The position numbers and the translations under genes were made by a program. A DNA stretch of 64,000 bases, from positions 21,539,464-21,603,463 of the forward strand of contig OZ020490.1 of NCBI GenBank assembly GCA_963971405.1. Direction: 5' to 3'. Below the pieces are notes generated by a model that did not search any database, was not told the origin of the DNA, and saw nothing but the letters and a program-made list of their open reading frames with translations. Source of the stretch: Psococerastis gibbosa. Its lineage: Eukaryota; Arthropoda; Insecta; Psocodea; Psocidae. Shown one piece after another: positions 5,851 to 45,161 of this stretch (positions within the stretch are counted from its first letter, which is position 1; each line of letters opens with the position of its first letter).

Positions 5851-6278
5851 TGTTGATAGTAGCATGCTAATGTTTGCAAATAATCCATCGATCACAGTAA
5901 AGTTGATTTAGAGGCACCACAAAAAGCTGAGCAATTAGCTATTCCGCATAATTTTAATCAAAGCACTCCTGAAGGCGTCCAACTTGTCGATCCTCTTGAT
6001 TTCAGCCGGGAGTTTGTTATAACGACTAATTCCAAAGTCAAACACAGAATTTTTAATTTAGATGGTGGAGCGATATGCAAAACTGAGATGACTGAAAGAG
6101 TGGTGTCGACCAAGCCAAAGCCCACTAAGGCGGGTATTCCACTCGTCAATTTTACTTCAAATTTGATTTTGTCACTGACGGAGACTCATCAATGTTGCAT
6201 TATTTATTTTTACACCCCATTCCACTTGTTTACAACAAATGATCATTTTTGTTTTCAATTTTTTTCCTAATTTGTAAG

Positions 6279-7922: not shown

Positions 7923-8058
7923 AAAGAATTATACATAGTCTGGACTCTTAAGGGATGGTTGGACCGAGGGCAACCAACAGTTGCACATAACGCGACAGTA
8001 GGCATGAGATCAGGTAAGCCCCGAGAGAAAAACCTTTCAATGCTAATAAGCCCCGCAT

Positions 8059-8575
8059 TTGCAGATATACAAAGATAAAATGGTGGCGTTGAGACAAGAA
8101 ATGCACACTAACGCTAGACTCCTACATTGTATTTATCGGTTATCACGGCTGTGTCCCAGTCAGATTTTTCAGATGCCAATGTCAAGGCCTTTGTCAAGGG
8201 TCTTTGGAGGTACAGTCATCAACGGAGTCTGGCGAATCCGATGCAACGCTGAAATCCATCGGCTCTACAAAGGCCTCAGCGTCATTGACGATCATAGAGC
8301 AAAAAGGCTACAATGGATAGGTCATGTGCACCGGATGCCGAACCACAGACCCCCAAAGGCCGTGTGGGAAGCAATCCCTCTCGGAAGAAGACTAAGAGGA
8401 AGCCCTAGGCGAAGATGGGCGGACCAGTTCCAGGAGGACCTCCTTTGAGTTGGCGTCGAGGCAGCAGATTGGACAGCGGCTGCTGAGGATCGACAAAGAT
8501 GGAGGGAAATTGTCAGAGCGGCCAAAAGTCCCCCTGGGCTGATCGCGCCTAATATAATAATAATAATTAAGTCAA
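8059..8575 (+). pseudogene. Non-LTR retrotransposon C-terminus and 3' tail
   Basis: The plus strand encodes WRIRCNAEIHRLYKG, AKRLQWIGHVHRMP, GRRLRGSPRRRWADQFQEDL, a stop, and then VGVEAADWTAAAEDRQRW with REIVRAAKSPPGLI. The order (WRIR-NAE, RLQW-GHV-RM, RG-PRRRW-D-EDL, RWR-IV-AAKS) is that of the C-terminal end of RTE/CR1-like endonuclease-reverse transcriptases. It ends with a TAA-rich microsatellite tail typical of a 3' end. The catalytic domains are missing, so it is a 5'-truncated dead copy. Confidence 0.82.
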
Positions 8576-23232: not shown

Positions 23233-23680
23233 CTACGTCACGCTAATAGGTCGAGACCGTTCTTTTGGTTCAGACTTAATACACTTGCCCGTGAGTTGAT
23301 TAACACTTAGTGGATTGTTCACATCGTGAGGATTCGTCCCGACCGGGTTGCGATGCAAAGGCGGCAGCGGCAGAGGAAGGATGGGCTTCATGTCGTACGT
23401 GGGAGGCGTCAGGGGTGACTGGAGGGACATGCAGGGCGACGCTAAACTGACGGACGGCGAGGCGAGTGACGTGGAGGGTGATGGCAGGATCATGGAAGGC
23501 GACGTGAGCGAGGAGAGGCCGCTGAGACCTCCGGGAGAACTCAGAGACTGCGCCAAGCTGGCGTCGTCGTCATCAGGCGGTGTTGTGGCATCACCAATAC
23601 TTCCCACGCTACCAATATTGTCCTCTGACCCTTCCCGGTCATCCGAACCTTCCATGTACCGGATACACTTCTTTTTGCGC
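23233..23680 (-). CDS. pan: TCF/Pangolin terminal exon: second half of C-clamp and C-terminal tail
   Basis: The exon opens by completing an Arg codon and reads RKKKCIRYMEGSDDREGS. RKKKCIRY supplies the fourth cysteine and basic end of the C-clamp, the auxiliary DNA-binding domain of TCF proteins that reads helper sites. An acidic PPDDDD stretch follows, then Ser/Pro/Leu repeats (SPGGLSGLSSLTSPSM, PSTSLASPSVSLASP), RNPVGTNPHDVNNPLSVNQL and a stop at 23233. NPLSVNQLT is very like the segment I remember from Drosophila Pangolin. CIKSEPKE contains a SUMO-acceptor consensus (IKSE). A consensus acceptor precedes the exon, and the phase fits the exon at 28278. A 113-codon plus-strand frame here is an antisense shadow. 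Confidence 0.93.
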
Positions 23681-25280: not shown

Positions 25281-25484
25281 AATAATTAGCTACAGGGTAC
25301 AAATAAAAGAAAATTATTGAATAAATGCATTCTCAACAAAAAAGAAATCAATCTGAAAACAAAAACAAAATAAAAAACACCAACAACAAAGGGGGAAGGT
25401 TATAGGGGAACTCACGACGACAGTCGATGATAGCTGATTGCAAGGAGAACAAGAGAAGATCTAGCGGGCACCGGATCCCGAGGA

Positions 25485-25635
25485 CTAGAGGTTTACATAG
25501 GTAGGCTCGTGGGGGGAACCAACCCCCAGAATAGCAGGGTTGACTGTAGCACCATGGAGGGGTCCGAGCCCATGGAGACCGCCGTGAGCCCCACCTGGCG
25601 GCATTGGCCCACCAGATCCGCTCACAGTATCCGGG
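25485..25635 (-). CDS. pan: Probable alternative terminal exon of TCF/Pangolin (truncated C-clamp tail)
   Basis: A GC-rich island in AT-rich intron encodes 49 residues after a shared Ser: PDTVSGSGGPMPPGGAHGG, then LHGLGPLHGATVNPAILGVG and SPHEPTYVNL, and stop. The first AG after a pyrimidine-rich stretch (GGGCAG) puts it in frame with the C-clamp exon at 28278: that exon's final AG plus C gives Ser. Joining it to either HMG exon instead would meet a stop within four codons. The protein would keep only three of the four C-clamp cysteines and lose RKKKCIRY, ending in a Gly/Pro/His-rich tail. No in-frame donor of quality is seen, so it reads as terminal. I do not recognise the tail; the call rests on composition, phase and location. 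Confidence 0.6.
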
Positions 25636-25749
25636 CTGCCCAAATTCAACAGTCCAAACATGTATAAGTCCGGTAGTGGAAACACAATCACATAAATGCA
25701 TAAAAGAGTGGGCCCCATCTCAGAAGATATTACCTTGAGGAACACGGGA

Positions 25750-25926
25750 TTTTTTTTTTTAGGTTAATCGCATCCAAACAATTTAATGAATGTATCCAAT
25801 TGAACTGTTCAGTCGCCTCAATGAGTAAATCAATACTTATGCTGAGTTACGACACGTCTCCGATGGTATGGCATGTAGAGACTCGCCGAAGTAAAAGCAA
25901 GCTACCATCTTGCCATCGAAGTCGAT
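25750..25926 (-). repeat. tRNA-derived SINE, family 1
   Basis: Minus-strand copy. It starts at ATCGACTTCGATGGCAAGAT (complement of the right end) and ends in an A run next to AGGTTAATCGCATCC on the plus strand. Confidence 0.75.
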
Positions 25927-27342: not shown

Positions 27343-28277
27343 TTACTTTTTAAATAGGACTAGAGGCAAGAGAAAATAGTTTTTGAAAAACAATTTCCCA
27401 TTTTACAACATTCTTATAAGCTCAGATGGTTTCAAAAAAGCCTTACGGTAAATGCATATAATGTTAATCCCACAAAATTTAACATTTTCTACTAACATCG
27501 TATATTTAGATGAAAAAATATTACTGAATTTAATTATGGGTACCTAGCTTGTTAGATTTTAAAGTTAGGTTCTATTTTACTAGTAAAAGCAGCTAGTATA
27601 TCACAGCGATATTTAAGCCAGTGGAATCGCACACGTTCCAAGGTACACTGTTAGTTTAATAATGTCCTGAAGTACTTTTTATGGTCAAATGCCAACGATC
27701 CCATGGATTTCGGACATTATTTGTATTGTTTCCGTATGACTTTTGGCCATTGGCAAACTAGTATAAGTCCCAGATGTCAACCTACACCGGTTACAAGCGA
27801 TAATGGACAAGCTGAGGTAAGCTTACCACTGACGCAATGAAACAGGCGAAAGCATGACTTAAGCTAGTACAGATATGAGTCGAGATTTACTGTCCATACA
27901 CAATTTATAAAAATTGAAATTAATAATTTAGTTATTAATTAAATTAATAAGTTGGAATTAGTAAGAGCCAATGAAGCTGTCACCGCGACATGGAGGATAT
28001 ACTTCTAGTTTATTTGTTTATTTTTGATTTCATCTATTCATAATAATAAAATAATTATTGTTTTATTAGTATCTCTCCCAAAAAGTCCTCTTCACCGATA
28101 AGTTACCACCTCAATTCGCGAAGCATTAAGTTAACTAAAGAATAAATACAGTTTTTGTTTTTATTATTATATATTGTAGATGTTAGGCCGCACGGGAAAT
28201 TTGTTTTTATTTTATTGTCAAGCAAAATTACAAATTCTACTAAAAGCATTCAAACAGGCAGAAATAAGTAGTCTTAC

Positions 28278-29569: not shown

Positions 29570-29723
29570 CTCCATCGTTAGCCTCTTGTTTCCGCTTCCT
29601 CTTCTTCCCTCTTGAGGAATTGGCCCTAGACGACCAATCAGGATATAGCTGCATATGCAGCTGCCGCTCTCTACGTGCAAGCTCGTAATATTTTGCCTGC
29701 TCTTCACGACCCAGGGCATGCCA
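29570..29723 (-). CDS. pan: TCF/Pangolin second HMG-box exon, version B
   Basis: A 154-nt exon reading [20 protein letters not shown], then [20 protein letters not shown] and [11 protein letters not shown]. It supplies the second part of the HMG box (third helix) and the basic KKRKRK tail that bends DNA and serves as nuclear localisation signal. Acceptor TTGTTGGTTAG and donor GTAATC flank it. It starts on a codon boundary, as left by the exon at 32052, and ends with one base of Gly that is completed by the C-clamp exon. [26 protein letters not shown] is, as I recall, the form in the published Drosophila Pangolin protein. It shares about 25 of its first 30 residues with version A. Confidence 0.93.
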
Positions 29724-31116: not shown

Positions 31117-31291
31117 CTCCTAAAGACGAAGAAATATTAGGCGGCCGGTCTTTTTTTCTTTTTCTCTTCTTGGTTCCATAGCCGTAGTTATCTCTAGCGC
31201 TCCAACCAGGATAGAGTTGCATATGTAGCTGCCTCTCATGCCGCGCTTTTTCATAATATTTGGCCTGCTCCTCCCTTGTTAAACTATGCCA
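31117..31291 (-). CDS. pan: TCF/Pangolin second HMG-box exon, version A
   Basis: A 175-nt exon reading [20 protein letters not shown], then [20 protein letters not shown] and [18 protein letters not shown]. It covers the same part of the HMG box as version B but has GWSARDNYG before the basic tail, the sequence typical of vertebrate TCF/LEF. Acceptor CATTTTATAG and donor GTATCA bound it. It begins at phase 0 and ends at phase 1, exactly like version B, so either can link the exon at 32052 to the one at 28347. Its donor is weaker than that of most other exons here. The open frame runs on past the donor as intron. Confidence 0.9.
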
Positions 31292-32051: not shown

Positions 32052-32259
32052 CCGTCTTCCTAGTATTTGGTTGATGGCAGCGCTTTCCTTAAGAGTACAC
32101 TCGGCTACTACCTTGGCACGCATTTCTTTCATATAAAGCATAAACGCATTAAGCGGTTTCTTTATATGAGGCTTCTTCTTGTCGTTTTGCCCTGAGTCTT
32201 GATTTTTGGAATCTTGAGACGTATGATGCGTCGACGATGAGTTCTTATCGGAACTCGAC
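32052..32259 (-). CDS. pan: TCF/Pangolin first HMG-box exon
   Basis: A 208-nt exon reading [59 protein letters not shown] and [28 protein letters not shown] is the nearly invariant start of the TCF/LEF HMG box, the DNA-minor-groove-binding domain. The Ser/Asp/Gln-rich leader is the usual linker. A TTCTGTTTTAG acceptor and a GTAAGT donor flank it. Its first base completes Arg with two leftover bases (CG). Both the exon at 44919 and the exon at 34188 provide these, which is the main reason to place two alternative exons upstream of it. Confidence 0.96.
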
Positions 32260-32912: not shown

Positions 32913-32957
32913 ATACCTATGTTATCAACCCTCCTATTTTGCATGGACATGTGCTTA

Positions 32958-33275
32958 GGCGGGGTTTCCACCGACCTCTCATTGCAGAGTGCAAATGACA
33001 TAGACGGAAATTTGAATTTTTCTTTTTAAAGAAATCTATTAAAATGCTTGTACTTAACATATCCCATGACGCCATTTTTTAATTTTAGTTTGATTGTGAT
33101 TTTACTCTATGATCATTGATCAATTTTAACTATGGCATAGAGTAACAAAAATTTCCGTCAATGTCATTTGCATTCTGCAATGCGAGGTCGGTGGAATACC
33201 CGCCAAAGTCTTGAATATCTGCTACCACGTCAATGTCTTTGCATTCTGCAATGAGAGGTCGGTGGAAACCCCGCC
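32958..33275. repeat. Inner MITE unit with a one-sided extra arm
   Basis: GGCGGGGTTTCCACCGACCT to 33204 is a complete inner palindrome with the ATGATCATTGATCAATTTTAA centre. To its right comes AAGTCTTGAATATCTGCTAC and then a second GGTCGGTGGAAACCCCGCC end, with no matching left outer arm. This is a deleted or rearranged composite. Confidence 0.75.
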
Positions 33276-34187
33276 ATACATGTCCCTGGAAAAACGTCAC
33301 TATGCAATAGAAACGGGTCATATTTCTAAATCATGGCTGCTGTTCACAAATGAGACTCTTTCGTATAGGAATCCATAGATAAATGTCGTCAAATTCCAAT
33401 GTTATGATTGGTTGGGCACGGTTGAGCCCATGATCTGAATGGTTGGGGGCAAGCATTTCCCAATATAGGAAAGGGATCCATTGTTATTTTCATGTAACAC
33501 TATTGTTTGATTATCTATGAACAGGAAGGGGAATGGTTTCTAGAAAAATCCGTCTGAACGGTTAAAGAACGCCGTGGCGGGATACCCCAATGAGGCAAAG
33601 AGTCTTCTCTTGACCACTGCCCTATTTGGGATGTTGGGCAATTTGTGTTTTTACTCTACCAATGAAGATAAGGTAACCATTAGGGATAGGTAGATCCAGG
33701 TCCTGTGGAAACTGTTTCCCTCTATGACACGTTTTGAACCTCAATATTCCGTTTCATATCCCTGTGCTGGAATAATGCTCCAGACCACCATCGTCCAAAC
33801 GGTTGAACGACCATTCTCTAGCAGAGATAATACCAGTTTACGTGCAAGGGAAACCATCCACCTACAGTGTGTACAGTAGATAGGTTCAAATAAAAAACCG
33901 ATAAAGTGCCCAGTTTAATTAGGGTAACTAAATGTTCCCTATCGCAACATCTAATCAAAACCATGATGTCGCCGACCCAGAAATCAAAACCAGCAAGTTA
34001 GTCGACTAGGAATATATTCCACCTCGCTACGCTCTAAGGCCCATCAGTCTTATCATCACTTGAAAAAGTACCGGCGGCTTTGCCATCTTTCAATGCATGG
34101 TAGCCTATCCCTCATCGAGACTTCTTAAACTGGGATTGGCCTTGCCCTAATTCAACAAGCAAAGAATAAAAAAAACCTAGTTCTCAC

Positions 34188-34891
34188 CGTCTAGACTTAG
34201 CACCACCCTCACGCCTTCTAGGTTTAATGGCCCTCTCCTGGGGGTTCGGAATGGACAGCACCAACGGTTTGGTTACACTTTCAAACTCTGGAGACTGAAT
34301 AGGTAGCGACTGATTCGGCGAAAGCAAAAAGTTCCGCTTCTTACTGAAGTCCAAAGGCAAATCTTCCGCACGACTTAAATTCAATGGCTCAGGGCTAGGC
34401 GTGGGAAGAGCAGATTCAATAATCTTTTCAAAATCTGGTTTCTCTGGTTCCTTCGCGTTCAAACGTTCCCTCAGATTCGGGTAAGGATCAGGATCCGGAT
34501 CCGGTTTACTCTCCGCGGAACTATTTGATAAAAGTCTCTTGTAATTATCATACACAGTGTCGTATCCGCAATTGAAAGGAGTATTTTGAAAATAGTTGGG
34601 AAATAGAGAATTATACGTATTTACAAAATCTCTCATGTAAACAGCCGCTAAAATTTGTTGCTCGGTCAGGGACGGCCATTCCTGCTTTGGTTCTTCGTCG
34701 GGTTTCTCTAGAAGACGGTCTATTTGGTAATTGGCACTATTGTTGCTAGATTTGGTCAGAGTAGTATCAGAAACCGGCTTTTCTTTGTCTTCTTCAGGTC
34801 GGTTGATAACTGAAGAGGGGGCCACTACTGCAACCGGTTTTGCTTTACTGATTTCTTTCTTAACGAGATTCAGAGGGGTCCATTGTTCCAT
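34188..34891 (-). CDS. pan: Probable alternative first coding exon of TCF/Pangolin, no beta-catenin domain
   Basis: An open exon of 234 codons starts at ATG 34891 (MEQWTPLNLVKKEISK) in a good context (GAGATGG), with an in-frame TGA five codons upstream. It ends in CG before a GTGAGA donor, and CG plus G of the exon at 32259 gives Arg, as the exon at 44919 also does. It cannot be a cassette exon, because its frame requires phase 0 entry while the upstream TCF exon ends in phase 2. No N-terminal beta-catenin-binding motif is seen. Notable parts are PLNLS at residues 169-173 and PLDFS at 179-183 (CtBP-type motifs), PLNLV at 6-10, DPDPDPYP near 131, and a basic KPRRREGGAKSRR end. I do not recognise the rest. 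It could belong to a separate nested gene, but only TCF exons are visible downstream. Confidence 0.66.
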
Positions 34892-34937
34892 CTCACCAAA
34901 CACAAGTCAGTCTTAACTCGTACAAGCTCGTCACATC

Positions 34938-34945
34938 TTAAATAC
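34938..34945 (-). promoter_or_regulatory. TATA-like box, or 3' splice site, before the alternative first exon
   Basis: TATTTAAG on the minus strand lies about 47-55 bases upstream of the ATG at 34891, a spacing that would put transcription start just before the ATG. Directly upstream, TTTTTTTCGTTCTGTACAG is also a good acceptor, so the exon may instead follow a non-coding first exon. Confidence 0.35.
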
Positions 34946-34989
34946 TGTACAGAACGAAAAAAATGGATGTAATCGCTTGAATATTATAA

Positions 34990-35110
34990 ATAAATAATGA
35001 CTTGTTTTATTACTAAACCAACCTAGCGGAGTTTAGGCTTAAACTCAACTAGGGTGGCTTTAGATGCCCTCCAAAGCAAGCGAGTCCTTAGAGAAGGCCT
35101 TATTGAAGTC
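34990..35110 (-). repeat. SINE, family 2 (partial)
   Basis: The complement of ACCAACCTAGCGGAGTT and of ATGCCCTCCAAAGC matches the 3' part of the copies at 46390 and 57030. Confidence 0.65.
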
Positions 35111-35186
35111 CAGCAGTCAGGCAATAATTCATTAAGTCTGGAATAATTTTGCGGATCCATTGCTGAATTGTTCTGTTTGCTTTCCT

Positions 35187-35566
35187 ACGTAGTATAGGGG
35201 AAGCTTTGTAATGATCGAAATGTTCGATTTCGAGATTTAAGTGGATTTACACGTCCCAAGGCTGTGCCCACTCCCACCCAGAAAAAAAATTATTGACTTT
35301 AAACTAGATGGACTTAAACTTTCCACATAATGCGATATTTCACTAAATACTATAGGGTCGCAGTCCTCCCCGAAATATTCAGTTCAGTTTTTTGGGACAG
35401 GTAATTTCTAGGCAACCGAAATGAAATCATAGGAAAACTATTTACTATCATATTATTTCTCTCGGTACCTATACTAATTGATAAATAGGAAAGCATGTTC
35501 GAATAAACTAGCTCCGGTTTTTTTTTGTGGGGGGGGGGGAGTGAATGATACCTATACGGCTGTACA
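35187..35566 (-). repeat. Dispersed repeat with TACGTAGTATA end (diverged)
   Basis: CTACGTAGTATAGGGGAAGC, CGATTTCGAGATTTAAGTGG and a distal GCATGTTCGAATAAACT segment match the longer copies at 47262-47990 and 58760-59405, with a different middle. Boundaries approximate. Confidence 0.6.
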
Positions 35567-44918: not shown

Positions 44919-45161
44919 CGGTGGTTATGGTCGGCCTGCGTATGCAATTCCTGCTTGGGGCCCGGCGTGATAATGGCCGGGTGAGACGGCAAGGAGTGGG
45001 GCCCGTGCGGGCTGAGGCCCGGGTGACCCGGTAACAGCCCGGTCGGAGAGATCCTGTAGAACTCACTAGGTAACGTTGTACTGGTGATGGGCAGCGAAGA
45101 GGGGTAAGGACTACGAAACCCTCCCGCGCCCGCGGAGATTGGATACATCCCGGGAGTATGC
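44919..45161 (-). CDS. pan: TCF/Pangolin central proline-rich exon
   Basis: A 243-nt exon reading HTPGMYPISAGAGGFRSPYP, SSLPITSTTLPSEFYRISPT, GLLPGHPGLSPHGPHSLPSH and PAIITPGPKQELHTQADHNH. This matches the WHTP-MYPIS-GGFRSPYP ... HPAI-TP--KQE segment of TCF/LEF proteins, between the beta-catenin-binding and HMG regions, where Groucho/TLE corepressors and context-dependent signals act. A GTGTTTCAG acceptor and a GTAAGT donor flank it. The first base completes Trp from the exon at 50371. The two last bases (CG) complete Arg with the HMG exon at 32259. The KQE near the end is followed by a His-rich linker. Confidence 0.95.

Follow-up and report, generated by a model that had tools for sequence, protein, structure and literature searches.

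A candidate alternative N-terminus with CtBP-type motifs in the TCF gene of Psococerastis gibbosa

The TCF gene and its surroundings

We analyzed a 64,000-nucleotide stretch of the Psococerastis gibbosa genome (GCA_963971405.1, contig OZ020490.1), referred to here as the window, which carries on its minus strand a gene that, by its predicted products, is a TCF/LEF gene of the pangolin type. Splice sites were scored with matrices of general metazoan values, not derived from Psococerastis gibbosa, and ranked among 3178 AGs and 3587 minus-strand GTs. The exons recognized as belonging to this gene are the following:

44919..45161, minus strand: canonical exon before the HMG exon; donor 11.27 (rank 6/3587), acceptor 10.03 (rank 21/3178)
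32052..32259, minus strand: HMG exon 1, the proposed common partner of both starts; acceptor 8.14 (rank 75/3178), donor 11.27
31130..31291, minus strand: exon completing the HMG box, copy a, beginning at base 31291; stretch used in the joins, 3' border approximate
29570..29723, minus strand: exon completing the HMG box, copy b, beginning at base 29723; stretch used in the joins, 3' border approximate
23233..23680, minus strand: last TCF exon, with the second half of the C-clamp, RKKKCIRY; it also takes the phase of the alternative exon described below

The canonical exon (44919) joined to the HMG exon gives an open frame, and in the PDB the HMG exons matched LEF1 (2lef_A, 9.5e-45) and then SOX-5 (7.7e-13). 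The 409-Mb genome has a single, weak match to the beta-catenin-binding domain PF08347, at C15:21822877-21823008, which scores 24.0 bits where the curated cut-off is 22.4 (E 0.008). It lies some 248 kb 5' of the ATG at 34891 and was assigned to the same gene by strand and contig, the reading of exons being limited to the 64-kb window. Of the C-clamp, the second half RKKKCIRY was found at 23680, while the first half was unmatched by two patterns.

Two tandem copies encode the second half of the HMG box, and either one joined to exon 32259-32052 completes PF00505 over 69/69 positions; copies a and b are apparent alternative exons and would perhaps be mutually exclusive. The minus-strand stretch 25300-25760 holds a frame with ...SGSGGPMPPGGAHGGLHGLGPLHGATVNPAILGVGSPHEPTYVNL, which is possibly a further TCF exon. 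Elsewhere in the window, a plus-strand open frame of 132 aa (8050-8448) ends with RRRWADQFQEDLL, a sequence that we take to resemble the tail of a non-LTR reverse transcriptase. COX1-like copies were seen in large contigs (G000:C14:11085363-11086704 and others, L042-L048) besides the 17-kb contig C68, and since several of them have an internal TAA or TAG they are probable nuclear mitochondrial insertions. COX1 itself (L041) reads in the invertebrate mitochondrial code 5 and its ending resembles that of arthropods, on which sea star and brachiopod were discarded as possible sources of the DNA.

An open frame of 240 codons with its own ATG

Between the canonical exon and the HMG exon, positions 34184-34906 of the minus strand form a frame of 240 codons from stop to stop, which exceeds in length every other one of the window's 21 open frames of 100 aa or more; second comes the TCF C-clamp exon with 156 aa. 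Frames of at least 240 codons appeared in 0/100 first-order Markov windows assembled in 2-kb blocks, in which the longest frame averaged 154 codons and reached a maximum of 228. The 240-codon frame itself is genuine. The features that would define a coding exon within it are:

34188..34891, minus strand: proposed alternative coding exon, 704 nt (234 codons + 2 nt), with its own ATG at 34891
34907..34909, minus strand: in-frame TGA 5' of the ATG, read from the sequence
34182..34190, minus strand: donor ACG/GTGAGA (-3 to +6), score 9.25, rank 22/3587
34945..34946, minus strand: acceptor AG before 34944, 53 nt 5' of the ATG, score 8.32, rank 68/3178

The original prediction of a 234-codon exon with its own ATG and an upstream in-frame stop is thus borne out by the letters themselves; the ATG is preceded by GAG and followed by G. 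At its other end the 240-codon frame reads AGA CGG TGA, so that the donor at 34188 overlaps the stop TGA (34184-34186), an arrangement with a donor this strong being found in 11/1237 open frames of at least 30 codons on both strands. Since there is a good acceptor before 34944, the 234-codon exon might come after a 5'UTR exon; if this entry is used, the start would lie further upstream and the exon would not be strictly the first.

Candidate splicing partners of the proposed exon

The proposal that exon 34188 ends in the same phase as the canonical exon 44919, both feeding the HMG exon at 32259, agrees with the joins, as both are open. Among the 26 acceptors scoring at least 7 between 34100 and 20000, the one that opens the longest frame in this exon's phase is that of the C-clamp exon, with 148 codons; the HMG exon comes second with 73 and the next opens 41. 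Of the two long ones, the HMG exon is the sole one with a donor of at least 7, and it is also nearer to 34188; as the C-clamp exon is phase-matched too, a product skipping the HMG box would be possible. A partner exon from another gene was considered and set aside, the long phase-matched frames behind these 26 acceptors, down to 20000, being TCF exons.

The predicted protein of the alternative exon joined to the HMG exons matches PF00505 with an E value of 3.8e-22 over 69/69 positions and does not contain PF08347, in keeping with the original idea of a TCF that would not bind beta-catenin.

CtBP-type motifs

V and F are tolerated at the corresponding positions of PLDLS-like motifs. Three motifs of this type lie in the exon:

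34862..34876, minus strand: PLNLV (then KK), aa 6-10
34373..34387, minus strand: PLNLS (then R), aa 169-173
34343..34357, minus strand: PLDFS (then KK), aa 179-183

PLNLS and PLDFS, within 15 residues of each other, had been pointed out from the start, while PLNLVKK had been missed. The description of the exon as having a CtBP-recruitment style also stands, in that PLDLS-like motifs are present, each is followed by K or R, and they occur far above chance; binding itself is predicted. In 200,000 shuffles of the exon protein, the pattern PL[DN][LF][STV] gave three motifs in 0 and two in 10, and in the 127,996 six-frame residues of the window it occurs 4 times, three of them in the 234-codon exon, figures that somewhat inflate the case as the pattern was picked after the motifs had been seen. 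When the minus strand was scanned for PLSL and PL[NDS][LF][SVT], the only matches besides the three in the exon were at 27806 and 8399, both outside the recognized TCF exons. The absence of any further motif from those exons suggests that, within the window, a CtBP link would be specific to the alternative form.

As for the partner, PF02826 had 8 matches in the genome, two fragments of which (C3:16591704-16592686) look like CtBP by eye, and 59 residues of one of these two matched CtBP2 structures at 1.1e-30; on these matches, a CtBP gene is present. An open frame of 128 aa on the plus strand (5884-6270), with no Pfam match, has a PLDFS as well.

Codon usage and searches for relatives of the exon

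Codon log-odds were trained on 8020 codons taken from G000 loci that GPCR and HMG-box searches had brought up, using each locus's longest open frame if it reached 240 codons; 23/38 loci qualified, leaving n=22 frames once an identical pair was removed. With 0.057 per codon, the proposed coding frame scores best of the six across the whole exon; of 3079 overlapping noncoding windows 0.8% reach this value, which falls within the range of the training frames (-0.06 to 0.21). On a purely synonymous score it has 0.015 per codon, which 3.3% of the noncoding windows reach, and other frames are higher, with 0.076 for sense frame 1 (14 stops) and 0.097 for one antisense frame; moreover, in the last 204 nt of the exon none of the five other frames falls below the coding frame on both scores. 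Codon usage thus backs coding weakly, with synonymous choice barely favoring the frame; composition adds little to the coding case and the motifs add more.

A core-promoter scan of 34892-35300 found two one-mismatch TATA sites, which is not enriched over the background of 9 per kb, and zero exact TCAKTY against a background of 1.5 per kb. The 234-codon exon had no domain or significant match in Pfam, PHROGs or the PDB, where 6hiv (E 0.83) and 9hny (E 1.1) were taken as chance. With E values up to 10 allowed, three candidates from its own genome were scored and the sole match was the exon itself, with no paralogue, and among viral contigs 9 pattern matches yielded 0 confirmed relatives. A mobile-element origin of the exon was discarded, there being no second copy in the genome and the long inverted repeats (32954-33275) lying in the intron, outside the exon.

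Those repeats are an observation apart. A 60-nt inverted repeat, 90% complementary (32954-33013 and 33149-33208), lies in the intron that separates the alternative exon from the HMG exon, and words like it in translations near 29.1 kb and in locus L007 suggest a small dispersed element.

Other readings of the exon

The original prediction held that the exon could not be a cassette. This did not survive the following finding:

34188..34394, minus strand: rival cassette of 207 nt; acceptor 7.53, rank 102/3178, open between the canonical and HMG exons

Its acceptor is in phase and near the HMG acceptor in score (8.14), its length is a multiple of three, joining it leaves the frame open, and its 5' edge falls directly ahead of the PLNLS/PLDFS pair. 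Spliced in after canonical exon 44919 and ahead of the HMG exon, it would lengthen full-length TCF by 69 residues that include both motifs, and such a protein would still bind beta-catenin. Nonetheless, chance alone would place about 0.4 in-phase acceptors of this quality in 704 nt (arithmetic from the ranks), and a cassette leaves unexplained the ~165 preceding open codons, the good context of the ATG and the third motif, hence we regard it as unlikely, though worth keeping in mind.

The weak codon bias, the promoter motif that was not found and the exon's want of matches in Pfam, PHROGs, the PDB, viral contigs and the rest of its own genome are what would be seen for an open frame that arose by chance or has decayed and makes no protein. 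Such a frame would have to bring together by accident its length, the triple motif, the donor and phase-matched partners that are TCF exons only, and taken together these make the explanation distinctly unlikely.

We also weighed a single-exon gene nested in the TCF intron, complete in itself and ending at the TGA of 34184-34186, with the ATTAAA at 33919 available for polyadenylation. That the frame closes with a stop fits this reading; that a strong donor lies over this very stop, in the phase of the HMG exon, an overlap as infrequent as given above, and that no paralogue exists in its own genome speak against it, and a nested gene appears very unlikely. A regulated poison exon, by which the canonical exon would splice to 34944 (rank 68/3178) and meet a stop two codons on, shutting down the full-length protein, accounts for the immediate stop of that join but not for a 234-codon open frame with three motifs, and we consider it the most improbable of all.

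Comparison with known systems

In human and mouse cells, TCF forms devoid of the beta-catenin domain are dominant negatives (PMC4963812), and vertebrate deltaN isoforms are known for TCF7, LEF1 and TCF7L2 (PMC4963812; PMC9303524), some deltaN forms of TCF7L2 coming from novel exons (PMC9303524). The form predicted in P. gibbosa resembles them in the internal start within a TCF gene, the loss of the beta-catenin domain and the retention of the HMG box; it differs in that its N-terminus would consist of 234 residues of its own with three CtBP-type motifs, and in that it would also skip the exon directly before the HMG exon. A deuterostome survey presents the deltaN start and the CtBP motif as potential vertebrate innovations, and in the same source the intron between exons X and XI is a chordate innovation (PMC9303524).

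Direct CtBP-type motifs in a TCF protein are found in TCF7L1 and TCF7L2 as PLSLxxK in the C-terminal part (PMC4963812; PMC9303524), and echinoderm TCF has its own version, PxDLSxK (PMC9303524). P. gibbosa shares with them the presence of such a motif, but here the motifs stand on the alternative N-terminus, as PLNLV, PLNLS and PLDFS. According to the same survey, Drosophila pangolin is without a CtBP motif (PMC9303524). Another isoform-specific repressor motif is the LVPQ splice motif of TCF4, which binds GRG5/AES (PMC3698143).

The likeness to ZEB drawn at the outset is apt, as ZEB recruits CtBP via three PLDLS-like motifs too, PLNLS-PLDLS-PLNLS (PMC2749851), whereas the P. gibbosa exon has one of its motifs at the far N-terminus and no canonical PLDLS, and homology between the two was not found. 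Close in logic is also the Su(H) of protostomes, a pathway transcription factor that recruits CtBP directly by a divergent N-terminal stretch: in myriapods and chelicerates its CtBP-binding motif lies in the N-terminal part, which is not conserved, and Su(H) proteins from a broad range of protostomes have motifs for direct binding of CtBP and Groucho (PMC6777938). Su(H) is nevertheless a different protein, of the Notch pathway, and the available text describes no separate isoform (PMC6777938).

Among arthropods, Anopheles has localized alternative transcripts of the same gene, pangolin; these were ruled out as a match since they differ at the 3' end and have nearly identical frames (PMC6783274). 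Chironomus Panish, like the predicted form, has no beta-catenin domain, but is the product of a separate gene, panish (PMC6783274). In our literature search, with subscription literature mostly outside its scope, a comparable isoform in invertebrates was not found.

A possible Wnt-insensitive repressor isoform

Overall, the locus offers a sound sequence observation for which the alternative-start reading is plausible. We favor, at somewhat better than an even chance, the explanation that the frame is an alternative N-terminal exon, giving a TCF that is insensitive to Wnt and recruits CtBP. Its transcript would begin near the exon, or bring a 5'UTR exon spliced in at 34944; translation would start from the ATG at 34891, and splicing from 34188 to 32259 would lead into the HMG exons. 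The resulting protein would bind TCF target DNA through the HMG box with the beta-catenin domain absent, which would leave Wnt signalling unable to turn it into an activator, and the three CtBP-type motifs would recruit CtBP and keep the targets repressed. For this form, transcription start, splicing, translation, CtBP binding and repression are all steps that we infer from the sequence.

More tentatively, and at a little under an even chance, the exon may define a dedicated Wnt-insensitive repressor with its own start, in which the HMG box is kept and the beta-catenin domain and the preceding exon are swapped for a stretch with three CtBP motifs. This would amount to a deltaN TCF and a direct TCF-CtBP link originating independently of vertebrates, in one exon.

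Although deltaN TCFs are already known in vertebrates, CtBP motifs on a new N-terminus of an arthropod TCF would be new. Wnt targets of Drosophila reportedly require CtBP along with pangolin, a finding attributed to Fang et al. in 2006, although pangolin itself is without the motif; a motif-bearing TCF isoform outside Drosophila would be informative. If used, the exon of P. gibbosa would let the choice of first exon act as a natural switch, turning an activator into a fixed repressor.
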